This document shows, in pieces, positions 18,018 to 33,296 of a stretch of DNA of 33,938 nucleotides. Made by a program: the position numbers and the translations under genes. The notes beneath the pieces are model-generated. The model was not told the DNA's origin. It saw only the letters and a list, made by a program, of their open reading frames with translations, and did no database searches. The stretch lies in assembly GCA_029260035.1 (NCBI GenBank), contig JAJDEA010000182.1, positions 1 to 33,938 of the forward strand, given 5' to 3'. Position 1 is the stretch's first letter, and each line of letters begins with the position of its first letter. This stretch comes from Phycisphaerae bacterium. GTDB taxonomy: Bacteria > Planctomycetota > Phycisphaerae > UBA1845.

Positions 18018-19808
18018 ATGAACGTTTTAGGCATCATTCTTGCGCGCGCGGGAAGCCGAGGCTTGCCGAATAAGTGCATGCGCGATCTGCTCGGCCAGCC
18101 GATGATTCGGTACACGATTGACCATGCGCTGCAATGCAACGCGCTTAGCGACGTCATCCTGTCGACCGACTCTGAGCCAGCGAAAGCTGTCGCTCTCTCC
18201 GCGGGAATCGAGGTTGTAGACAGGCCCCAGGAACTGGCAAGCGATTTGGCAACCGTGGACGCGGCGGCGAGACATGCCGTGGAGAGCTGGGAGTTAAGCC
18301 ACGGTGCTTCCGTGGACGCCGTCGTACTGTTGTATGGCAATATCCCTGTTCGCCAGCCCGGACTCTTGGGCCGAGCCATTCGTCATCTTCAAAGATCAAA
18401 CGCGGATTCCGTACGAAGCGTAGCAAAGGTAAGCAAACAACATCCGGATTGGCTGCACCGCCTGGAAGCCGACGTGATGGCACAATACAGGCCAAACAGT
18501 ATCTATCGTCGTCAGGACCTCACGCCTTTGTATTATCACGATGGCGCTGCTGTTGTCGTGCGTCGTGACGCACTATTTGGTGCGCTCGAAACGCCTGACG
18601 ATCACCAGGCATTTCTTGGCAAAGATCGACGCGCGATTATTCAAGGGCCGGAAGATTCCGTTGACGTCGACGAGGCGCTTGATCTTGTCATAGCTGAGGG
18701 GATTCTACGATCACGCCAAGAAGCCGTCGTAAACACCACAAGTCCACATGAGAACTTGGTACCCCGTGTGAAGATCGACACTCGCACGATTTCATGCGGA
18801 CAACCCATCTATGTCATCGCAGAGGCAGGCGTAAACCACAATGGCAAATTGAGTCGCGCGATAGAAATGGTGGATGCCGCTGCTGGAGCTGGTGCAGACG
18901 CAATTAAATTTCAAGTGTTTTCTGCTGAAAGGCTCGCTTCCAAGGACGCGCCAACCGCCCGGTATCAGCGATGTTCCGACGATGCTACTTCGCAGCGGTC
19001 GCTACTGGAAGGACTCGAGCTTTCATTTGAGGATTTCCGGGAGATTCGCGACCATTGCAAGACAAGGGCTATTACATTCCTTGCGACGCCTTTTGGTTTG
19101 GAAGATGTTGCCGTCCTGGAGGCACTCAAAGTCGATGTCATTAAGACGGCGTCTACAGACTTACCTAACAAGCGTCTTCTCGAAGCGGTTTCGCGTGTCG
19201 GCTCTCCTTTGATTGTATCGACCGGCGCTTCGACTGTGGCAGAAATCCATCAATCGGTTGATTGGCTCCTACGACGGGTCGGCCCGGAACGACTTATACT
19301 TTTGCATTGTGTCAGCTCGTACCCTGCACCGCTGGAATCGATCAATTTGGGTGCCATTCGAACCATGGCCGAGGCGTTTTCCGTGCCCGTCGGCTTCAGC
19401 GATCACACACAGTCCGTTCAAACAGGGGGCTGGGCGGTTGCAGCGGGGGCGTGCGTTTTGGAAAAACACTTTACACTCGATAAGACGCTGGACGGGCCGG
19501 ACCATGCCATGTCTCTGACTCCTGACGATTTGAAGGAATACGTTTCCGGTGCGCGAAACGCATTTCGTGCGCTCGGCAATGGAGTATTGGGTTTAACCGA
19601 ACTCGAGGCCGAGGTGCGCTCTGTCGCTCGCAAGAGCGTTGTAGCTGCGAGAGACATTCCAGCAGGCATCGCGATTGGTGCTGGCGATCTGACGCTCAAG
19701 AGACCGGGAACCGGTATCACCGCTGATCATTTTGATGAATTGCTCGGCCGTCGGACGACTGTTCCGATTCACCGCGATACGCTATTTGACTGGGATATGA
19801 TCGAATGA
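18018..19808 (+). CDS. Fused CMP-nonulosonate cytidylyltransferase / nonulosonate synthase
   Basis: A 596-residue two-enzyme fusion. Residues ~1-235 are an acylneuraminate cytidylyltransferase (NeuA/LegF type, makes CMP-sugar): ILARAGSRGLPNK, VILSTDS, LLYGNIPVR and the conserved SVDVDEALDLVIAE end. Residues ~250-510 are a sialic/legionaminic acid synthase (NeuB/LegI type, condenses phosphoenolpyruvate with an N-acyl hexosamine): VIAEAGVNHNG, IKFQVF, FLATPF, ISTGA-like VSTGAS, LLHCVSSYPAP, GFSDHT and VLEKHFTLD. Residues ~533-596 are the SAF (antifreeze-like) domain with RDIPAGIAI and RPGTGI. There is no good ribosome site before the ATG. The stop overlaps the next gene by ATGA. Which acid is made cannot be decided from sequence. 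Confidence 0.9.
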   Translation: MNVLGIILARAGSRGLPNKCMRDLLGQPMIRYTIDHALQCNALSDVILSTDSEPAKAVALSAGIEVVDRPQELASDLATVDAAARHAVESWELSHGASVDAVVLLYGNIPVRQPGLLGRAIRHLQRSNADSVRSVAKVSKQHPDWLHRLEADVMAQYRPNSIYRRQDLTPLYYHDGAAVVVRRDALFGALETPDDHQAFLGKDRRAIIQGPEDSVDVDEALDLVIAEGILRSRQEAVVNTTSPHENLVPRVKIDTRTISCGQPIYVIAEAGVNHNGKLSRAIEMVDAAAGAGADAIKFQVFSAERLASKDAPTARYQRCSDDATSQRSLLEGLELSFEDFREIRDHCKTRAITFLATPFGLEDVAVLEALKVDVIKTASTDLPNKRLLEAVSRVGSPLIVSTGASTVAEIHQSVDWLLRRVGPERLILLHCVSSYPAPLESINLGAIRTMAEAFSVPVGFSDHTQSVQTGGWAVAAGACVLEKHFTLDKTLDGPDHAMSLTPDDLKEYVSGARNAFRALGNGVLGLTELEAEVRSVARKSVVAARDIPAGIAIGAGDLTLKRPGTGITADHFDELLGRRTTVPIHRDTLFDWDMIE

Positions 19809-20959
19809 GCAGTTCTACTGCACGATCGAGGCGTCGTCGTGTCGCAGTCGTAACCGGTACGCGCGCGGAATATGGCGTGCTTCAGTCGACGATGCAAGCC
19901 ATTCAAGATCATTCCCGGCTCAAGCTGCAATTGGTCGTAACGGGTATGCATTTGATTAGAAGATTTGGCCATACGGTTGATGACATCGTTCGAGATGGTT
20001 GGTCGCCAGCCGTGCGAGTTGCCATGCAAAAAGGAAATGACACGACACAAGACCAAGCGGAGGGTCTCGGGCGTGGCGTTCGCGGGATCGCGAAATACCT
20101 CGATGAGGCGAATACGGATATTGTCGTCGTGTTGGGCGATCGAATTGAAGCGATGGCGGGTGCGCTGGCTGCGGTTACGACAGGCCGAATCCTTGCCCAT
20201 ATCCACGGAGGCGATGTTGCAGCGGGCGACTTTGATGACAGCTTGCGGCATGCGATTACAAAGCTCGCACATGTTCATTTAACAGCAACGCAATCTTCAC
20301 ACAAGCGAGTTGTTCGCATGGGCGAAGAGTCTCGCAGGGTGTATTGTGTTGGTGCTCCGGGCTTGGATCAGTTACGGGAGATGGTTCGAAATTCCATGCC
20401 AGAAGAAACCTTGCCTCGCACTGCACTCATCGTTCAACACCCAATCGGCCGATCGAAACGCGAGGAACGCAAGACGGCATTGATGGTTCTCGAAAGTGCA
20501 GCATCTGCTGGCTTGCAACGGGTTATCATTTACCCCAACACGGATCGAGGTCACTTAGGTGTCATCGATGCGATCGATACACATCGCAAACGCTCTAGCA
20601 ATGGAGACGTCCAGGTATTTCGCTCGCTGGATCGCGATTCGTACCTAAAAGCACTGATAGACGCAAAGGTACTGGTTGGAAATTCTTCGAGCGGAATCAT
20701 TGAGGCTGGCATGGCAGGCACGCCTTCAGTAAACGTTGGTTCGCGACAGGCAGGCCGAGAGGTCTCCGGTCCGTCCGTCATCCATACTCAAGAGACACCC
20801 TCTTCCATATCACGCGCGATAACCCGCGCCCTCCGCAAGAGACCGATAAGAGGAAAGTCCGGCGCCTATGGTACGAAGCCGGTCGGTCCGAAAATCGCAG
20901 CCATTCTCGCCAAGATTCCACTGCACGATTCATTTCGTCGAAAAACCTGTTCTTATTAG
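19805..20959 (+). CDS. UDP-GlcNAc 2-epimerase (hydrolysing), NeuC/LegG-like
   Basis: A 384-residue epimerase of the hydrolysing kind, which makes the N-acyl hexosamine that the preceding synthase uses. Seen: VVTGTRAEYGVL near 15-26, VVLGDRIEAMAGALAA, HIHGGDVAAGDFDDSLRHAITKLAHVH, VGAPGLDQL, and VGNSSSGIIEAGMAGTP with GSRQAGR near the end. The GDRxE and HxHGGD motifs are the expected nucleotide-sugar site. It overlaps the fusion gene by four bases, so the two are translationally coupled and form a compact cytidylation-synthesis-epimerisation cassette. Acetyltransferase and aminotransferase genes of the full legionaminic pathway are absent, so a Neu5Ac-type route from UDP-GlcNAc is the simpler reading. 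Confidence 0.88.
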   Translation: MSSSTARSRRRRVAVVTGTRAEYGVLQSTMQAIQDHSRLKLQLVVTGMHLIRRFGHTVDDIVRDGWSPAVRVAMQKGNDTTQDQAEGLGRGVRGIAKYLDEANTDIVVVLGDRIEAMAGALAAVTTGRILAHIHGGDVAAGDFDDSLRHAITKLAHVHLTATQSSHKRVVRMGEESRRVYCVGAPGLDQLREMVRNSMPEETLPRTALIVQHPIGRSKREERKTALMVLESAASAGLQRVIIYPNTDRGHLGVIDAIDTHRKRSSNGDVQVFRSLDRDSYLKALIDAKVLVGNSSSGIIEAGMAGTPSVNVGSRQAGREVSGPSVIHTQETPSSISRAITRALRKRPIRGKSGAYGTKPVGPKIAAILAKIPLHDSFRRKTCSY

Positions 20960-21990: not shown

Positions 21991-24900
21991 TTAGTCGCAC
22001 GGCGAGACAATCGGAAGCGACGCGCCATTCCACGATACGAACGACCCAGCTCCATTCAAGAGGTTAATCAACGCCGTAATATCCTGCGGGTTGGACGGCG
22101 GGCCGCTTCGATTGATGTCCGTTGCGAAATCAGGTTGCACAACGACACCGTTCAACGAGTTGATCAGAGCCGTAATATCCTGAGCATTGGTGCCTCGACT
22201 GGCGTTGACGTCGCCCGGCAAGAATCCAAGACAAGCGTGTGATGCACTCGCAATGTGAATGAACTCTGTCCAGGCAGAAGGTTCAATCGGCGCGTCCAGT
22301 GTCAACGTCACGGATAGCGGATCACCTACAACAGGCGTGACAGTCAAAATGTTCGGCGGTGTTCCGTCTCCACCCGCTTCCGACAACATGAAATCGCCTG
22401 CGGTCAACGCTGATGCGTCTCCATCAAAGGTCAGCACAATTGACGTCCAACCGCAAACACCTGGGTTGCCGATACACATGGCTATATCGCCGATGTCATG
22501 GGGTTGACGCGCGTCAATCGCATTGTCAGCCGGCATGGACGATACAATTGATATCTGCATGCATGGATTCGGATTGCAACTACCCGCTCCCATAAATGTC
22601 CCGCCAGCACCAACGCAGGAAGCTTCCGATTCTACGGAACACGTTCCGGTATTGCAGCAGACCCCCGAACCGCACGGATCGGGTGAGCACGTCGTTCCGT
22701 CGCCATCGTATGCGTTGAAAATGCTGACTTCACAAGCTTCCTGGGTGAGAACCTGGCAGCTGGCATCAGGGCTGCAACAAGCTCCTGAAGCTGGACACGG
22801 GGTGTCTGCTATGCAGTTTAATGATACGCAGAACAGGCCATTCATCGTGTCGCAGTTGGACTCCGTTGTATCGAGACATGTGCCGTCATCCAGACAGCAG
22901 GAACCGCCAGGCTCGCATGTGACAGCTGTGCAGTTGGAGCCAAGTGTGAATACGTCGCCGGTGCCAACGCATTGCGAAATGACGGTATCCCTGCACGTTC
23001 CGTCGAATGAACAACAAGCGCCGCTTGCACAGTCGACGGCTGTACACAATATGCCATCGCCTTCGTATACATTGGCTGCGTTCAATTCGCACGCAGCCTG
23101 GGTAATCTCGCTACATCCACTATTGGGGTCGCAGCAGGCACCGGCGCTGGGGCACATCGGGTTGGCAACGCATGTCGCCAACGCAGTAAAGATTCCACCA
23201 GCCGCGGTGCACGGTGTTTCTCGTTTGTCATTACAAGTGCCATCAATTTCGCAGCACGAACCGCTGACTTCGCATTGAGCTGCGGCGCAATCCGAACCTG
23301 GCGCAAAGACATCACCTTGTCCAACGCAAGCATCGACGATTGTACTATCGACGCAGCTTCCATCGGTCGAGCAACACGAGCCGTGAGCACACGTTAAAGT
23401 CGTAGCGGCGCATAGCGCGCCGGACGAGTCGTAGATTCCGCCCGCTCGCTCACAGGAGAGTCTCGTTCGATCTTCACACAGCCCTGTCGGCATGCAGCAC
23501 GCAGCTGAGATACAAAGGTCGGACGGCGCACAAGAAGTGTCATCGCCCGCATAGACTCCCTGGACGACCGGCCCCGTACAGACGGACGTATCTTCGATTG
23601 TGCATACTTCCATGCTTGACATGCTGTCAATGTTGCAGCATGCGCCGCGCGCCTCGCAAGTTCGTTGTGAACAGAGGTTACCCAATACGAAAGCGCCTGG
23701 AAGGGTATCGCACTCCGACGCAACGGTGTTGTCGATACACTGCCCAGTTGCCGTACAGCAGGAACCGGGGACGCATTCACCAACTACGCAACTGCTGCCT
23801 GGCCCCTGGTAGAAGCCGTTTTGAAGCCTGCAGTCCAACAATGTTAGTGCAGGCTGGCAGCTTTCGGTTTGTCCCATCGGGAACGGAGGCGACAAGCAGC
23901 ATGCACCTGCATCGCAGAGATCAGGCTCACAGACCGTGCTGTCACCTGCATAGGTGCCTCCCGCATTCTGACATGTGACCATGGTCATCGTGTCGTCGCA
24001 GGTGCCCATACTGTCCAGGCAGCAAGCACCGTGGGCAATGCAAGGAACATTGCTGCATACATCACCAACGGTAAAGACATCGTTGGTCTGAGCACATTCC
24101 GCGGCGATCGCACTGTCAACGCAACTGCCATCAAACGAGCAACATGCACCCGACTGACATAATCCCGGCGAGCACGTTGTCGTATCGCCAAGGTAGACGC
24201 CACCGTTAAAACCGCAATTGCCTTGCGTCGATATTGTACAGGCGTCGTTATCGCAGCAGGCGCCAAACGGCTCGCAGAACGCGACGGCACATGTGATTCC
24301 TCCGCTAAACACGCCATTGAGCGAATCACACTTGGCTCGAACGACACCCTCAACACAACTACCGTCGCTCAAACAGCAGGCGCCCTGCTGACACAATGAA
24401 GCGCCGCAGGTTCCAGCACCATCAAAAACGTTTTCGGGGTCCGCTTCGCACGCTGTTTGTGTGATAAGTTGACAGGTGCCATTCGTGAAACAGCAAGCGC
24501 CAGCTGACGCGCAAGGCGCATCGGCGATGCAATCCAGCCCCGGCGAGAATATTCCAACAACTGGGCCACAGAGAGACTGTCTCGTGTCAACGCACACGCC
24601 TGCATTCGTGCAGCATGTTCCCAGTACGCAAGGCGAGTCGGCACATTTGGAGCCAACACCTTCAAAATCTCCGCCGGCATCGGAGCACGCAGCCGACGTT
24701 AATGTCGAGCACACGCCACCAACACAACACGCGCCGCCCGAAGGACACAACCCATCGGAGCAGGTTTGTCCGGCGCTGAAGGAGACATTGGCTGGCGGGT
24801 TGTTCGGATCCGGTATGCAATCGAATTCGACCGTTTCCTGACAGCTACCGTCATCCCGACAGCAGGTGCCGATCGTGCAAAGTCCCGGGTCCTCCGTCAG

Positions 24901-27195
24901 GCAACTCGTATTGTCGCCTCGATACACACCAGCGGAGTTTGAACAGGTTGCTGCAGTGATGGTGCGACATGACCCGTCCGACAAACAGCACGCTCCCGCT
25001 GGCGGACAAACGGGTGTCCCCGGGCAAGTCTGACTCAGATCGAACGTGCCTCCGGAATCGGAACATTGCGATTGAATCGTATCGATACAACCACCGGTCG
25101 GTAAGCAGCATCGCCCGATCGCGCATTGTGCAGTAGTGCAGTCGGTTGCACTGGCGTCAAAGATGCCGCCAGATGCCTGACATCCGAAATCGGTCAAGCC
25201 ATTGCACGTTGCCCCCGTAAGGTCCGTTGGATCACAACATGCTCCCGCTGGCGGGCACGCATCGACTCCGCACGTTTGGCCACTGAAGAAGCTCGCTCCC
25301 ACAGCAACACATTCTGCAATCGTGTCGTCGGCGAGATTGCATGTACTGTCGTCCAGGCAGCACATGCCAGTTGCACATAGATCGATGGCACATGTTTGAC
25401 CCGGATTGAAGTTTCCCGCAGCCGCGCTACACTCAGCCTGTGTCAGCTCCGCACACAAATTGCTTCCACAACATGCACCGGTCAGCGAGGGGCCGGGACA
25501 CAGTGGTGCGCTACTACACGAGTTTACCGCATTAAACGTCCCAAGCGCATCAGCACAAGCGACGGCATCCATATCCACGCAAGTTCCGTCTCCGAGGCAG
25601 CAAGCCGTCGCTCCTGTTGCACATGAAACCGTTGAGCAGTCGTCTCGGTAGCCGAGGAATTTACCCAACGGCAACTGAGCGCATTGGTCCGGCTCAAGGT
25701 TGTTGATACATCCACCCTGCCAGCAACATGTTCCCGGACACTGCTGGGTCAACGTGGCACAACTTGTATCATTGCCTTGATAGCTTCCGCCCAATACCGA
25801 TTCGCAGAGATTTTGGTTAAGGTCGTCGATGCAGGTCAAGTTCATTCCGGCTACGGGCACCGGCATACAGCAGGCCCCGTTTCCGCCACAAGATGCCGGA
25901 AGCGTTGCGCAGGTCGTCCAATCACCCTGGAACGTTCCATCTGCCAACTGACACTGAGCCGCTGACGTTTCCGAGCAACCGCTACCGTTGCAACAAGCGC
26001 CACTCGGGTCGCAAGCGCCGGGAGCGCAGGTGGTGCCATGAATCTGCCATACGCCAAGCGCATTAGCACAAGCGGCTCGCGAGACATACAAACATTGGCC
26101 GCTTGCACAACAGGCTCCAAGGCCGCAAGCAGGTTCTACGCCTGCACAAGTTGTATTATCACCCTGGAAAACACCGGGAATCGCCAAGCAGTCTTCTTCA
26201 GTTACTTCCGAGCACCCACCACCATCCAGGCAACATGCGCCGACGGGAAGGCAGGTGTTCGTAGCACAGGATACTCCCTGGTTCCACATGCCGCCTTGCG
26301 CTTCGCACGAGAATCGGTCACTGGCAATACAGATTTCGCCAAGACAGCATGCTCCTTGCGTCATTGGACAGCCCAGGCCCATGCCGATCAAATCGGAACA
26401 GGTGAAGAGTGGTTCGGAAAACTCACCGCCACCCGCCAAACAAGCTGCCTGGGTAGTCTCAATGCACCCCATCGTTGGATCGCAACAGGCACCGGGCTTG
26501 GGCGCGATGCACATTTGCATCGACCATGCCGCTTGGTTGAACGGACTCATAAAGAATACCGTCGCCGGATCGATGGGAGGATCGGCAAACAGAACCGATG
26601 CAGCAGACCCAAAAATGTCACCGTCGTCACCAGCGAGTCGCTGTGGGTATAGGATGTCAAAGTCACGAAAAGTCGTCATTTGCGTCGTATCCCACGACAC
26701 ACCAATGGCATATTTCTTCCCAGGCTGCAACTGAACGGGTGGATTGAGAATCCCGGACGAATAGAACATCGGACAAGGCGGCTGCGCACAGCTCGTGTCG
26801 CCGGCTATTTGAAACGTGGGGTCTTGAATAAAGACAGCTTCGTATTGATTCAGACTGGTTTCCTCAAATACCGCAAAAGACACATTCGCCGATCCGGTAA
26901 ATGAAAACTCAAAGAGAATCTCAGTCAGCTCCGATGGGTTATCGAACTGATAGACGTTCGCGCGATACGCCCGCGCCACAAGCGGAAGCGTCTGTTGGAG
27001 ATTGAAGCCAAAGATTTCGCACGCAGCCGCCAACGGCGAGTTAGCCGCGAGCGGTGAGTTGGCGTCACCGTCTTCAACAGCCACCTCTAGTAACCGAGAA
27101 GGGCGAACCCCATCAGCCACAGCCGCTGCTTTGACTTGAGTTGCGAAATTCAACGCGATAAACAACGCGACCATACGAAAAATAACGATGCGCAT
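21991..27195 (-). CDS. Giant exported protein with 32 six-Cys GACC repeats and a dockerin-like tail
   Basis: A 1734-residue protein. Residues 1-24 are a signal peptide ending QVKAA. Residues ~25-232 form an N-terminal beta-rich domain, with SPLAANSPLAA repeated near 47. From ~233 to ~1547 there are 32 modules of about 41 residues, each with the pattern GACC-x(3-6)-C-x(5-8)-C-x(9-14)-C-x(3-7)-C: six cysteines per module, close to 190 in all, so it must be disulfide-rich and extracytoplasmic. A beta domain (LTFDGDASALTAGDFMLSEAGG) follows, and the end carries two calcium-loop-like repeats (GDVNASRGTNAQDITALINSLNG and TDINRSG..NPQDITALINLLNG), a planctomycete-style dockerin. GGAG lies eight bases upstream of the ATG. 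Function unknown; structural or binding surface protein is an inference. Confidence 0.88.
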   Translation of the reverse strand: MRIVIFRMVALFIALNFATQVKAAAVADGVRPSRLLEVAVEDGDANSPLAANSPLAAACEIFGFNLQQTLPLVARAYRANVYQFDNPSELTEILFEFSFTGSANVSFAVFEETSLNQYEAVFIQDPTFQIAGDTSCAQPPCPMFYSSGILNPPVQLQPGKKYAIGVSWDTTQMTTFRDFDILYPQRLAGDDGDIFGSAASVLFADPPIDPATVFFMSPFNQAAWSMQMCIAPKPGACCDPTMGCIETTQAACLAGGGEFSEPLFTCSDLIGMGLGCPMTQGACCLGEICIASDRFSCEAQGGMWNQGVSCATNTCLPVGACCLDGGGCSEVTEEDCLAIPGVFQGDNTTCAGVEPACGLGACCASGQCLYVSRAACANALGVWQIHGTTCAPGACDPSGACCNGSGCSETSAAQCQLADGTFQGDWTTCATLPASCGGNGACCMPVPVAGMNLTCIDDLNQNLCESVLGGSYQGNDTSCATLTQQCPGTCCWQGGCINNLEPDQCAQLPLGKFLGYRDDCSTVSCATGATACCLGDGTCVDMDAVACADALGTFNAVNSCSSAPLCPGPSLTGACCGSNLCAELTQAECSAAAGNFNPGQTCAIDLCATGMCCLDDSTCNLADDTIAECVAVGASFFSGQTCGVDACPPAGACCDPTDLTGATCNGLTDFGCQASGGIFDASATDCTTAQCAIGRCCLPTGGCIDTIQSQCSDSGGTFDLSQTCPGTPVCPPAGACCLSDGSCRTITAATCSNSAGVYRGDNTSCLTEDPGLCTIGTCCRDDGSCQETVEFDCIPDPNNPPANVSFSAGQTCSDGLCPSGGACCVGGVCSTLTSAACSDAGGDFEGVGSKCADSPCVLGTCCTNAGVCVDTRQSLCGPVVGIFSPGLDCIADAPCASAGACCFTNGTCQLITQTACEADPENVFDGAGTCGASLCQQGACCLSDGSCVEGVVRAKCDSLNGVFSGGITCAVAFCEPFGACCDNDACTISTQGNCGFNGGVYLGDTTTCSPGLCQSGACCSFDGSCVDSAIAAECAQTNDVFTVGDVCSNVPCIAHGACCLDSMGTCDDTMTMVTCQNAGGTYAGDSTVCEPDLCDAGACCLSPPFPMGQTESCQPALTLLDCRLQNGFYQGPGSSCVVGECVPGSCCTATGQCIDNTVASECDTLPGAFVLGNLCSQRTCEARGACCNIDSMSSMEVCTIEDTSVCTGPVVQGVYAGDDTSCAPSDLCISAACCMPTGLCEDRTRLSCERAGGIYDSSGALCAATTLTCAHGSCCSTDGSCVDSTIVDACVGQGDVFAPGSDCAAAQCEVSGSCCEIDGTCNDKRETPCTAAGGIFTALATCVANPMCPSAGACCDPNSGCSEITQAACELNAANVYEGDGILCTAVDCASGACCSFDGTCRDTVISQCVGTGDVFTLGSNCTAVTCEPGGSCCLDDGTCLDTTESNCDTMNGLFCVSLNCIADTPCPASGACCSPDASCQVLTQEACEVSIFNAYDGDGTTCSPDPCGSGVCCNTGTCSVESEASCVGAGGTFMGAGSCNPNPCMQISIVSSMPADNAIDARQPHDIGDIAMCIGNPGVCGWTSIVLTFDGDASALTAGDFMLSEAGGDGTPPNILTVTPVVGDPLSVTLTLDAPIEPSAWTEFIHIASASHACLGFLPGDVNASRGTNAQDITALINSLNGVVVQPDFATDINRSGPPSNPQDITALINLLNGAGSFVSWNGASLPIVSPCD

Positions 27196-27744: not shown

Positions 27745-30700
27745 CTAGTCACTCTGCACGTCGTCATAGTTCGCCATGATGCGATCGCCGATACGATCAG
27801 GCTCTTTCGAACCATTCAGCATAGGCAGTCGATCGATGGTCTCCTGAAAGCGAATCGCTCTTGAATCAACGTCATCGATTCGCATTTGTTCCTCAACGCC
27901 CATGTTTGGATCTTCGATCGTAACGTCCTGCGAGCCTCGAAGTACGCCATAAACGGTAAACACCTGCGATCGAACGGTGATCCAATCGCTCAGCGCCATA
28001 AGCGGAGCGACAGCTTCGATGTAACTTGTATTCGTCGTACCGCCGACGGGCACCAAGCCGTTATCAAAACGATAAAAGGCGCTCGCGCCTGCATGCCTAA
28101 CGTTAGCAAGTTCTCCGACGGTCATGAAGCCCGTGCCACGTCGCATTGATGGTGGCATCTTCGGGGGCAATGCGAAGGTGTCGCCAGCGTCCCAGCCTCG
28201 AATCGATGGGGTTGGGGAAAGTACGCCAAGCGACGGGTATTTGGTAGAGCCGTCGTTGTAATTGCCGGTTGATTCCGGCAAACTTCCCGGAAACGTATGG
28301 AAGATCTCCCGCAATTCGCGGTACGCAACGATTGACTTGGCCAACTCCGGGCCAAGAGGTATTGGCTTAGCGCGGTCTACAACCGAGATATTCAAAGCCG
28401 TCGCGATGGCATCTTCAATAGGAGAGGGGGTAGTGGTCGACGAGTCGGTGAATCTCTCCATCGGCACAAAGGGCACGCCTTCGAGCACTTTCCACGGAGC
28501 AGCATTGATGTTGATCCGCCCGTGTACGCGCATGCCATCCATATCGACCTTCGGCTTCTCGACGTCGTTCGTGCCAGTCGTGACGAGATTAGGCCCTTCA
28601 TTGGAAAGCGGAAGTGCCGTGAAATAGTCAAACACATATTGCCCCCAGGGCAGATGCTCCAAGCCGCCCGGCTTATCGAGGAAGGACGTTGCAGGAAACG
28701 TGGCGCTAACATCGACATTCGCATCAGCGTGGTGCAACATCAAGCCCATTCCATCCGGCGTGCTTTCATCAAAAACCGGCATTCGCCCGTTATCGATTGG
28801 GTAGAACGGCTGGTCGTCCAGGAAATCCGTGAAGGGCTTGCCCGGGGCGTTCGCGTGTCGCATCAGCAGGAGCATTGAGCCTGTCGTCGGAAACGCCGAC
28901 TCGAAACTACCCGTGTTGGCGAGCAACACCTCGACCTTATTGAGGTTGCCGGCAACGGAGTTTCCAAGGCTGTCACCGAAGGAAGTTCCCGTTCCATAAG
29001 CACTTGAGTTAGAGAGATCTGCTGGTATTACGGAATACCAATAGGAGGAGGGGTCGATAGAGCTTGCGACTCTTTCGATAGAGCCGATCGTGCCGGGAAT
29101 ACCGGCAGTTTGCTCCCACTGGCCCACTGTCGTAGATGTTTGCCCAACCAAAGAGAACCGATCGACAACGATGGGCACACCGATGACATTTCGTACAAGC
29201 GCAACGGTTGTGTTTTCATCGATTAGGAACTCCGACCCACTTATAGTTGACAACAAGACCTGAGCAGGTCCCGCTCCGGGAAGTGGCATCATCGTGTCCG
29301 AATCATAAAACCCCACAAAGCTACCGGCTGGAATGATCTCGCCGAATGAAAACGGAACGGAGAACCCGGAATTTGGACCGCCGTTAAGCGTGAACGTGTA
29401 GTCATTCAGATTGATGTCGGTGTCGTATGGGTTAAACAATTCAACACCGAAGAAATACGGCTGCGTGAAATCGACAGCTCCCGTGCCATCGTCTGTCGCT
29501 TGCACCACGACTTCCGTAATAAACGGCTGTCTTTCGATGCCGTAGCGCTTGCCGGTGCCGGTCGATTGACCAAAGCCTGTAGGATCATTGTAATCGGCGG
29601 AGCGAATATCCACAGCTGTCGGATCGTCGTCACCGTCCGCGAAGTCGATCATGTTAGCGGTGAGCGCAGCTGCGGTTTCTGCGATGACCGGGAAGTTCGG
29701 GTCCCAGTAGGGAGGAGAAGTTAAGTAAGATGGCTTATACGATCCCCAGTCACTTCCACGCGCGTTGAGCAACATGAATGTGAACGTATCCTGGATCAGG
29801 AGAATTTGTTCGGCCTTTGACAAGTCGTCCAAGTAAGGCAGTGACAGTTTGAGCCTACCCTTTAGCGAATTGAGTTCGCAGTCGGGATCATTGATACAGT
29901 CGCACCAATCCGCGTATTGCGGCGCACCGGCTCTGTTTATGCCTACATAGCTGTTCGCGTATTGTTCCGCCACACCTGAAGTCGTTACGGTTTCGGGGTA
30001 ATCAAGATAAGGCACGGGCACGACAGCAGGACACCCGTTTGCAATAATATCTTTGCGCCATTCACTGTTGATCCAATCCGCCAAATCGAGCGAGTCGATC
30101 GTCGTACCATTATCAATTCCAACAATCGTAGGTCTGGCGAGCAGGTCGTCATGGCTGATCGTGGTGACAAGATGGCGTCGGTCATAGCCATCCGAGGTCG
30201 GGTCCGGGTTTACGGGGTCCACACGATCCGGGTCCATCCGTATATGCCAAAGCGGAAACGCTGGGTCTGCGCCTGTTTCAGCAGGCGGATCGATTGGATA
30301 ATAACGATGGTCAGCCATTGTCTCCTGAGGCAGCAGGAAGAACGACAGATCGTTGGTCCCGATGGACAGCGGATTAGCCAATGAGTTGCCGAATAGGCTG
30401 CTCGGCTGAATCTCGCGAGGCGGCAAAAAGAAGCGCCGACGCAGGTTGTATTCTTCGCTTTTCGGATCATATGGCGGGTTGAACAACGGCGTTCCGGTGA
30501 CGCCCGGAATGACCGCGTCAATAATTAACGGATGCGAATAGCTCAGGTTGGCCATGCCGCCGTGGGCGATGATGCGAAGGCCTGCCGAGATATCCCCGTT
30601 TGGATCGGACGCCGGGTTAAGTGTTTTCTTGAGTTCGTCGAGCAGTGCATCATTGACGGCACCGAGGTCGCCGAGCGGAACTTCGATTGAATCAATAATG

Positions 30701-31290
30701 CCGTCACCATCCGCGTCCAGCGTTGTGTAATCGTCCCAGAATTTCCCGGAATCCCAGGTCGTCGTGGGCAAAGGTTCCCAAAATTCCGTTGGATCGACCG
30801 GCTCTTGCGAGTTGGGAACGAGCGAGAACCGATTCACCGGAGCATCGGGATTTGCGATGCGGTCGCGATACGCTTTGATGTCCGTTGCCCAGGCGAAGAC
30901 CATGTTGCCGGTAATCGGATCGACATATGGTTCGATGGGTGCAAAGAGGTTGTCAACGCCTGGCATTTCGGTGTAATTGGCAGCCCAGCTGACGAACTGC
31001 CCGCCGAGGTTACCCGTGACGGAGGGAATGACTTCTGTGATGGCTGTCTGCACGTCCGCGACGATGGATTCAGTAGCCGGGCCGGTGGACGTTCGCGCGT
31101 TTTCCGCAGCGATGATATCCGCCTCGAAGTTCATCGTAGCCATAAAGGCGATACCAGTGACGAACAAAATACCGAGGATCGTGACAACGAGGATCAAGAC
31201 CGTACCTCGCCTGCGGCGCGCGGCAGCCATGCTTGGCCCGGCTTCGGGCTGATGCGGCTGAATCGATGTTGTCTTCGTCTCGCGAATCAT
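27745..31290 (-). CDS. Very large GspK/PilX-like pseudopilin-family protein
   Basis: A 1181-residue protein, far larger than the ~330 residues of a normal GspK. Residues ~20-55 are a basic stretch followed by a prepilin-like signal, RRRRGTVLILVVTILGILFV, with no glutamate at +5 as expected for GspK. The section HGRININAAPWKVLEGVPF near 920 matches the GxxNxNtAp..vL..lpG pattern of GspK/ComEA-type helix-hairpin-helix. A central part near 610-700 (FFGVELFNPYDTDINLNDY) resembles a lamin-tail domain. A minor-pseudopilin role in a type II secretion or type IV pilus-like machine is inferred. It is downstream of a GspJ-like gene, separated by 311 bases. Confidence 0.7.
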   Translation of the reverse strand: MIRETKTTSIQPHQPEAGPSMAAARRRRGTVLILVVTILGILFVTGIAFMATMNFEADIIAAENARTSTGPATESIVADVQTAITEVIPSVTGNLGGQFVSWAANYTEMPGVDNLFAPIEPYVDPITGNMVFAWATDIKAYRDRIANPDAPVNRFSLVPNSQEPVDPTEFWEPLPTTTWDSGKFWDDYTTLDADGDGIIDSIEVPLGDLGAVNDALLDELKKTLNPASDPNGDISAGLRIIAHGGMANLSYSHPLIIDAVIPGVTGTPLFNPPYDPKSEEYNLRRRFFLPPREIQPSSLFGNSLANPLSIGTNDLSFFLLPQETMADHRYYPIDPPAETGADPAFPLWHIRMDPDRVDPVNPDPTSDGYDRRHLVTTISHDDLLARPTIVGIDNGTTIDSLDLADWINSEWRKDIIANGCPAVVPVPYLDYPETVTTSGVAEQYANSYVGINRAGAPQYADWCDCINDPDCELNSLKGRLKLSLPYLDDLSKAEQILLIQDTFTFMLLNARGSDWGSYKPSYLTSPPYWDPNFPVIAETAAALTANMIDFADGDDDPTAVDIRSADYNDPTGFGQSTGTGKRYGIERQPFITEVVVQATDDGTGAVDFTQPYFFGVELFNPYDTDINLNDYTFTLNGGPNSGFSVPFSFGEIIPAGSFVGFYDSDTMMPLPGAGPAQVLLSTISGSEFLIDENTTVALVRNVIGVPIVVDRFSLVGQTSTTVGQWEQTAGIPGTIGSIERVASSIDPSSYWYSVIPADLSNSSAYGTGTSFGDSLGNSVAGNLNKVEVLLANTGSFESAFPTTGSMLLLMRHANAPGKPFTDFLDDQPFYPIDNGRMPVFDESTPDGMGLMLHHADANVDVSATFPATSFLDKPGGLEHLPWGQYVFDYFTALPLSNEGPNLVTTGTNDVEKPKVDMDGMRVHGRININAAPWKVLEGVPFVPMERFTDSSTTTPSPIEDAIATALNISVVDRAKPIPLGPELAKSIVAYRELREIFHTFPGSLPESTGNYNDGSTKYPSLGVLSPTPSIRGWDAGDTFALPPKMPPSMRRGTGFMTVGELANVRHAGASAFYRFDNGLVPVGGTTNTSYIEAVAPLMALSDWITVRSQVFTVYGVLRGSQDVTIEDPNMGVEEQMRIDDVDSRAIRFQETIDRLPMLNGSKEPDRIGDRIMANYDDVQSD

Positions 31291-31601: not shown

Positions 31602-33080
31602 CTAGCCACCCACCGGGATCACCATCACATGACTGATGGGCCTTTGCAGCCTGTTTTCTCGATCGAACATCTCTACCGTTATACGAAGTGCCTTGGGGAA
31701 GAACTCCTCAGGCAACGACCCGTTCGTACCTCGATTTGCCGTAAAAACCGCCAGACTTGGCCGACCGCCGCTCGTCGCAAGCGAGTGTGCTAGCCACTGC
31801 GGGTCTCCTCCCACACCGAATCGATCCTCAAGACTGTAGGGAGTCCAACCCACATCATTCACGCCGGCGATTCCGTTGCTAAGTAGCCATTGAAGATCGA
31901 CGGCACGAAAACCTTGTCCAAGCGTCGTTGCATCCACCTCGGCCTCTCTAATCTGCCGAAGCGGGTCATCGTCGGTCGGGTTCATTGGGTCGGCGCCGAA
32001 ATCACCCTGATCGATCCAAAGGATGCGCTGCTCGCGGTCAAGCCAGCCGCCAACCACATCCGAAGCCGGGTCGAGCGTCCATTCGACCTTGAACGAGGCG
32101 CAGTTCGGCATGAAGTAATGGCCTAGCCGATTGGCGAGCTTCGCCGGCGGCAACAGGGCCAATTGGCTACGCAGCAGCGGATTGGAATTATTGAATACAT
32201 CCGGCCAATAGAAGGGCGGACCACCTCCGCCAGGGAAGCCGCCCGGCTGGAGCATGTAAAGATCGAAATCAAAATTGCCAACAACATCGGACTCACCGGT
32301 AAGGAGCGTCGGATCGTGCAACCCGTTTGTGCCGGTCAGCCAGGATACCCACGGCGGATCGACACTCGCTGGCGGTGGCTGTGACATGAGAACAACGCTT
32401 CGCCGGGCAAGGTGCCAGTTTTGAGCGGAGGCTGGCGAAACGTTCGGGAGCTCCGGGAAAGCGGCGGGGTCCGGGTCGAAGGTAGCTAAGCCTGTAAGCG
32501 GGTCGATCAGGTATTCCCCGAGGTCGGCGTGGCCATACACAATCTGCTGGTGTCCCGATGTAACCGTATAAGGAACGGGGGAAACATTGTCTGTATAGTT
32601 GACAAAGCTCGTACTTTTTCGCGCGGTGAAGAACATCAACATGTCGGCTCGAGGCGGGTTGTCGAAAACCGGATCAGCGAAGTTTTTCGTAAGTTTGTCG
32701 TTGAATGGGTCTCCATCGTCATCGATCTCGGAATCGTCCTGCCGCCAATAAGCGTTGATCGGATTGCCCTGGATGACTATGACGGATTCTTCGGGCTTGA
32801 CGGCCTGCAGATCGTCGCGAAGCTGAGTCTCCAGGACCCGGATAATTTGATTAACCTGCGTGATTGCCGTGGCTTGTCCCGTAGCTGTGACGGTCAAGTT
32901 CATCACTTCGCCCGCCAACGCAAGCATGAGCAGCAGGATGGCGATCGAAATGACCAACTCAACCAGCGAAAAGGCCCCCCGTCGGCTTGAAACACCACGC
33001 CGGCGGCAACTTCCCTTCCGCATGACCGGGAGGTGCGTAGACGCTGAGCGTAGCAGAGTTTTACCGATTGACCTTCTCAT
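31602..33080 (-). CDS. Prepilin-type protein, GspJ-like
   Basis: A 492-residue protein with a prepilin cleavage signal SSRRGAFSLVELVISIAI near residue 31-48. The cleavage fits either G|AFSLVE or A|FSLVE, with the conserved glutamate at +5 for the latter. A helix and IIRVLETQLRDDLQAV follow, as in GspJ. The start is uncertain: the frame opens with GTG at 33104, but ATG at 33080 has ACGGA a few bases upstream and is preferred; an ATG at 33023 would also keep the signal. The remaining ~400 residues are longer than in normal GspJ and not recognised. It precedes the GspK-like gene in the same direction. Confidence 0.75.
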   Translation of the reverse strand: MRRSIGKTLLRSASTHLPVMRKGSCRRRGVSSRRGAFSLVELVISIAILLLMLALAGEVMNLTVTATGQATAITQVNQIIRVLETQLRDDLQAVKPEESVIVIQGNPINAYWRQDDSEIDDDGDPFNDKLTKNFADPVFDNPPRADMLMFFTARKSTSFVNYTDNVSPVPYTVTSGHQQIVYGHADLGEYLIDPLTGLATFDPDPAAFPELPNVSPASAQNWHLARRSVVLMSQPPPASVDPPWVSWLTGTNGLHDPTLLTGESDVVGNFDFDLYMLQPGGFPGGGGPPFYWPDVFNNSNPLLRSQLALLPPAKLANRLGHYFMPNCASFKVEWTLDPASDVVGGWLDREQRILWIDQGDFGADPMNPTDDDPLRQIREAEVDATTLGQGFRAVDLQWLLSNGIAGVNDVGWTPYSLEDRFGVGGDPQWLAHSLATSGGRPSLAVFTANRGTNGSLPEEFFPKALRITVEMFDRENRLQRPISHVMVIPVGG

Positions 33081-33296
33081 TACGGTTCCGTAAGAACTGG
33101 ACACTTTTGCCGTGGATGCGAAACGCCACAGCCATGTGAATTATGGTCGAAATCATGTGTCGGTCCAGAGGCGGGCGGGTGAGAAATAAGGCCGATAATG
33201 ATTGCGCTCGCCCCATTGAGAGATTGGTTTGCGACCAGAATCGTCAATGTTGAGCCGGGCGTTCTTCTGCAGTACACGTCTCACCCCGACGGTGCC

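Follow-up and report, generated by a model that had tools for sequence, protein, structure and literature searches.

The window, a 33,938-nucleotide stretch of a Phycisphaerae genome, holds on its minus strand a gene for a secreted protein in which an N-terminal domain, a long array of six-cysteine modules, an Ig-like linker region and a dockerin-like tail follow a signal peptide (Table 1). The signal peptide, claimed in the original prediction, is plain by eye at the protein start; inspection by eye of the 1734-aa protein revealed no further membrane helix beyond it, and a Pfam scan of the whole protein returned Dockerin_1 alone, with no rhomboid-like transmembrane core. The Ig-like linker region is also present in L149, L200 and L204. 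Upstream of the repeat gene and on the same strand lie the genes of two large proteins (27745-31290 and 31602-33104) with hydrophobic or N-methyl pilin-like starts, one of which gives a weak helix-hairpin-helix match, as in GspK-type minor pseudopilins. A sugar pathway of the sialic-acid type is indicated by the sequence assignments at positions 18018-20959 of the plus strand, where a NeuA-NeuB fusion joins a CMP-sugar synthetase-type domain to a NeuB-SAF synthase and NeuC comes next.

Table 1. Features of the 32-module gene, in positions of the window
Feature	Positions	Strand	Basis
Whole gene: secreted 32-module protein, 1734 aa	21991..27195	-	uninterrupted ORF
Signal peptide, ~aa 1-23	27127..27195	-	sequence, by eye; MRIVIFRMVALFIALNFATQVKA
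N-terminal beta-sandwich domain, predicted fold lectin-like/PHR-like	26491..27048	-	AF2, VIA, relatives
Array of 32 six-cysteine modules (GACC / iRhom-type module)	22561..26493	-	CC splitting, alignment, profile, structure search
Ig-like linker region, aa ~1548-1655	22231..22554	-	inferred from sequence; conserved in orthologues
Dockerin type I-like tail, two D-x-N-containing repeats	22054..22218	-	PF00404

Cutting the protein at each CC pair yields exactly 32 modules, the number originally counted, each with six cysteines except module 30, which has a seventh; the last module continues into the tail. The modules follow the pattern CC-x4-12-C-x7-9-C-x12-18-C-x4-9-C, that is, cysteine spacings of 0 / 4-12 / 7-9 / 12-18 / 4-9 with 0-5-7-12/13-4 the most frequent, a tally that was also made on 172 modules drawn from many loci. 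The GACC, GSCC and GTCC starts attributed to the modules are not universal: GMCC, GRCC, GVCC, TACC and AACC are found as well. In the alignment, the six cysteine columns are invariant across the 32 modules whereas the sequences between them differ widely (23-45% identity to the first module), suggestive of modules that kept their cysteines while their remaining residues diverged. Among the 172 bacterial modules, the stretch that runs from the second cysteine to the third (C2-C3 loop) has the consensus x-P-D-G-x. The array carries a net charge of -120 over 1314 aa and is 14.7% cysteine. Tandem Repeats Finder detected no DNA-level tandem repeat over the array, which therefore does not reflect recent slippage, and the copies look old. 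A two-module (A/B) superrepeat, suspected because neighbouring modules are the least alike, found no support (even/odd test, p 0.18). In a survey of cysteine co-loss, C1 and C4 were lost together in one module, a single case.

Neither Pfam nor NCBIfam has a model for the six-cysteine module, and none of the 32 copies matches granulin, EGF or other Pfam cysteine repeats up to E 10. Although these and other cysteine-repeat stalks likewise consist of tandem disulfide modules in secreted proteins, their cysteine order and spacing are unlike those of the window modules; granulin and EGF identities were thus rejected, as originally predicted. Literature searches on this six-cysteine repeat, and on any link of iRhom with planctomycetes, returned nothing relevant. 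The statement that no characterised family is known stands as far as family models are concerned but not for relatives, which exist in the cysteine modules of the iRhom homology domain (IRHD). A different cysteine repeat, of CC-x5 units (CCGNPDPCCDSSAECC...), occurs in the same genome (G000:C109:28207-28596, in L075) as part of a 1850-aa secreted protein.

Foremost in the evidence for these relatives are profile searches of 177,635 distinct PDB sequences, through which eukaryotes were covered. With a profile of the 32 window modules, the four iRhom1/2 sequences come out on top (E 4.3e-4 to 1.9e-3), the next match standing at E 0.58. A wide profile built from 117 modules of other loci, none from the window, finds the same four iRhoms at E 1.8e-5 to 3.9e-4 and no other PDB sequence up to E 10; it also shows a second module copy in iRhom1, the first iRhom copy being aligned in its first half only. 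Comparison of the module profile with iRhom by hhalign gave 93% and E 2.4e-7. When the iRhom segment was shuffled with its cysteines fixed, the real score was reached in 0/10,000 shuffles for both iRhom1 and iRhom2; shuffling within loops reached it in 1/10,000 (iRhom1) and 0/10,000 (iRhom2). Permuting the non-cysteine columns of a profile, with cysteines and column compositions unchanged, left no match up to E 10, whereas the unpermuted twin ranked the four iRhoms first. In the reverse direction, a two-sequence iRhom profile at E 0.1 has matches in 11 of 40 planctomycete genomes (best 4.2e-4); in the fetched loci, where reversed frames give no comparable match, its best matches are GACC modules, the first of which aligns GACCIGTDSCEIMTQAQCTFQSGQYQGDNTSC with a 31-letter protein segment.

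The arrangement characteristic of an IRHD-type module, CC-x5-6-C-x7-C-x13-C-x4-C with similar inter-cysteine residues, was thus found. The IRHDs of iRhom1/RHBDF1 and iRhom2/RHBDF2 have the spacing 0-6-7-13-4 within the six-cysteine pattern common to the bacterial module, and residues outside the cysteines agree between iRhom and the L214 module, for example in CCIGT..SCEI.T...C. The settings differ: the IRHD, with two modules per domain, interrupts an inactive animal rhomboid between TM1 and TM2, and iRhoms have a long cytoplasmic N-terminus, whereas the bacterial modules come singly or in tandem arrays in secreted proteins in which no rhomboid core was found, and the window protein begins with a signal peptide. 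None of the four rhomboids in this genome carries the module.

Predicted structures point the same way. Two window modules, modelled with AF2 as originally proposed, gave a pLDDT of 89.6, consistent with a module that behaves as an independent disulfide-type domain. A Foldseek search of this model against 350,542 PDB chains returned four matches, the top three of which are iRhoms; rmsd values were 10.7 A over the full 137 columns for the top match, 1.6 A over 41 columns for the second and 1.2 A over 30 for the third, and the E-values to iRhoms (0.4-1.7) are weak because the domain is tiny (37 residues). VIA-align superimposed the model on iRhom1 597-637 at 1.9 A over 39 residues (Z 2.3-2.6), and a library of viral structures gave weak module matches only. 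The weight of the iRhom link lies in the agreement among several tests, each single statistic being modest. The profile search suggested at the outset accordingly finds nothing in Pfam, the module itself in planctomycete genomes, and iRhoms in the PDB. Given that the module matches both IRHD cysteine modules, what had been put forward as a new disulfide fold is probably better described, by sequence and predicted structure, as an IRHD module outside iRhoms.

The IRHD has itself been regarded as isolated. Its structure was reported to appear unprecedented in a cryo-EM study of iRhom2 (PMC11248996) and its fold to be unique to iRhoms in a modelling study (PMC10148629); neither the PDB nor AlphaFold models yielded relatives in these studies (PMC11248996, PMC10148629). 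iRhoms were stated to be metazoan-only (PMC3149277), and a review describes the IRHD as having 16 conserved cysteines and resembling no known domain (PMC6451368). The domain is held by 8 disulfides (PMC11248996, PMC10148629); two complete modules would account for 12 of the 16 cysteines. The second iRhom2 module lies at about residues 571-606 of PDB 8snl. The first reads CCVQNDHSGC from residue 470 of that chain, which places in its C2-C3 loop both D475 and S477, two residues at the ADAM17 prodomain interface, of which the former raises ADAM17 shedding when mutated and the latter served for cross-linking (PMC11248996). In the alignment, which here covers iRhom2 residues 470-479, this loop stands where the bacterial consensus is x-P-D-G-x.

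The models and profiles indicate that the bacterial and IRHD modules very probably share a fold, and a common ancestry, while unproven, is quite likely. The chief alternative is convergence: few cysteine spacings may be open to short disulfide-rich modules, so that the two could have arisen separately, the bacterial protein still being a stalk. The mere 37 residues of the module, the Foldseek E-values and the absence of a module-bearing rhomboid from this genome all speak for separate origins. We nevertheless consider them doubtful, as the signal is carried by non-cysteine residues (permuted columns match nothing and shuffles hardly reach the score), iRhom1 has two copies, and the wide profile matches no other cysteine-rich PDB protein. 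There is an even chance that the IRHD, regarded as confined to animals, was built from two copies of a module that abounds in planctomycete surface proteins and occurs in phage tail regions too. The module would have entered the animal stem by horizontal transfer or been retained from an ancient shared source, and its C2-C3 loop would have turned into the ADAM17 brake once it sat within a rhomboid.

The module is present in 57 of 60 relatives, which come almost entirely from the same order and family, but in just 19 of 392 genomes sampled evenly across the phylum. About 12 further proteins of this genome carry 1-6 modules, other genomes have up to ~40 module proteins, and more than 1000 distinct bacterial module sequences were collected. 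Public genomes, searched with a consensus query since the dimodule alignment was too variable, gave matches mostly in Phycisphaerae MAGs, plus two Ca. Eisenbacteria contigs; no module-bearing plasmid was found in PLSDB. L151, from a Gemmatimonadetes MAG (SS_bin_27), was left out as evidence of spread because it shares its SS_bin label with a Phycisphaerales bin (SS_bin_71) and may be misbinned. Among the domains that accompany the module are dockerin, multicopper oxidase, S8 and M12B proteases, the proprotein convertase P-domain, GH16 and carbohydrate-binding modules, a variety suggestive of an extracellular module used across many settings.

Several other module proteins were noted. L175:2971-4308 (IMGVR_UViG_3300010151_000153) encodes a 446-aa GACC-module protein, 18% cysteine and without a signal peptide, located between two frames that correspond to the opening and closing portions of one phage tail family (phrog_350), with baseplate wedge genes nearby; CCC-starting proteins resembling it occur in L167, L169 and L177. 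Several GACC proteins (L160, L094, L105) lack a transmembrane helix and have in common a C-terminal motif of the kind S/T-W-G-x-[IVM]-K-x-x-[FY]-R, which may be a sorting tag not recognised so far. L135:2339-4771 encodes an M12B reprolysin-like protease that combines GACC modules with a dockerin-like tail; ADAM17, the protease regulated by iRhom modules in animals, belongs to M12B too, a parallel that may be coincidence.

The N-domain (~185 aa) is predicted by AF2 to be a beta-sandwich (pLDDT 90.8, pTM 0.88). PHR domains, phage tail-tip/baseplate proteins and the Cwp84 lectin-like domain come closest to it by VIA (Z 11-13 over 141-162 residues), with the predicted beta-sandwich in common but only 6-13% identity; the N-domain profile has no PDB sequence match. 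Since beta-sandwiches are common, 'lectin-like' is a lead rather than a test. The profile matches 24 of the 60 relatives, nearly always as one copy. Among 23 frames with the N-domain in the fetched loci, 21 continue into arrays of 6-37 modules, in most cases ending in a tail of this type. Array length thus changes freely between conserved ends, a spacer-like behaviour. At the other end, the dockerin-like tail predicted earlier is real but marginal in Pfam (PF00404; 18.3 bits in the whole-protein scan and 23.8 bits in the genome search, against a cut-off of 22.9): it resembles dockerin type I in its two short D-x-N-containing C-terminal repeats but scores weakly, with degenerate calcium loops, the second one residue longer. 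The earlier remark that no cellulosome genes are in view is correct within the window; across the genome as a whole, however, 28 dockerin matches were counted, and cohesin domains on C33 and C166 exceed the Pfam cut-off. The dockerin matches and cohesins make a dockerin-cohesin attachment of the window protein possible on sequence grounds. The cohesin-domain secreted proteins are located at G000:C166:3137-4087 and C33:34580-34870.

Because iRhoms are membrane regulators and not stalks, the likeness of the modules gives no direct function. The product is probably an exported surface or matrix protein with a lectin-like tip, a rod of iRhom-type modules and an Ig-like plus dockerin-like anchor, and the role that we mildly favour is that of a disulfide-locked stalk joining a binding tip to this anchor. 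Exported to the cell surface or matrix, the protein would attach through its Ig-like and dockerin-like C-terminus and hold the lectin-like beta-sandwich, as a tip, away from the dockerin anchor on a long acidic rod of 32 disulfide-locked modules; we infer the rod shape and disulfide pairing, as well as the dockerin anchoring and tip binding. Each module, in the fold that would occur twice in the IRHD, would run from a short beta-hairpin at the CC pair through a short helix and one more strand to a loop that the last two cysteines close. The x-P-D-G-x C2-C3 loop may form an exposed, variable, ligand- or ion-contacting edge, as the iRhom2 loop contacts the ADAM17 prodomain. The disulfides would render the spacer resistant to proteases and unfolding, and its length would evolve through module gain and loss.

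Other functions may be considered. Planctomycete envelopes with much protein and cystine have been described in older work, which counts for a structural cell-envelope protein whose modules cross-link or pack into a cystine-rich layer with no held-out binding tip; secretion, the very high cysteine content and the many module proteins per genome are in keeping with such a layer. Modules also found singly or in small numbers on enzymes (S8, M12B, multicopper oxidases), the even and complete cysteine number per module and the conserved lectin-like domain at one end nonetheless render it rather improbable. Slightly less so, if still unlikely, is that the modules are themselves functional, each binding a ligand, metal ion or protease, with avidity arising from 32 copies. 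This is a serious rival because the iRhom2 module does so, with D475 and S477 of its first-module C2-C3 loop at the ADAM17 prodomain interface (PMC11248996), and the bacterial L135 protein combines an M12B reprolysin with modules; yet orthologues differ in module number (6-37), variation between the cysteines is wide, and only 2 of 58 proteins have a reprolysin domain. A metallothionein-like metal storage protein, finally, would fit the high cysteine content and the match of one module to PF07846 (E 0.035), but is highly improbable for a secreted protein with a strict six-cysteine pattern free of CxC clusters, a confident folded model (pLDDT 89.6) and a match to a domain held by 8 disulfides (PMC11248996, PMC10148629), and was dropped.

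Beyond the stalk favoured here, the finding bears on the IRHD, the most conserved and least understood part of the iRhoms, which control the release of TNF and EGF-receptor ligands through ADAM17. The bacterial module set is a possible source for the origin of this domain; its deep alignment marks out where the module begins and ends and which variable loop holds D475, and the bacterial modules would offer small soluble versions for biophysics. For the planctomycetes, it gives a name to a large, hitherto uncatalogued extracellular family of surface proteins.
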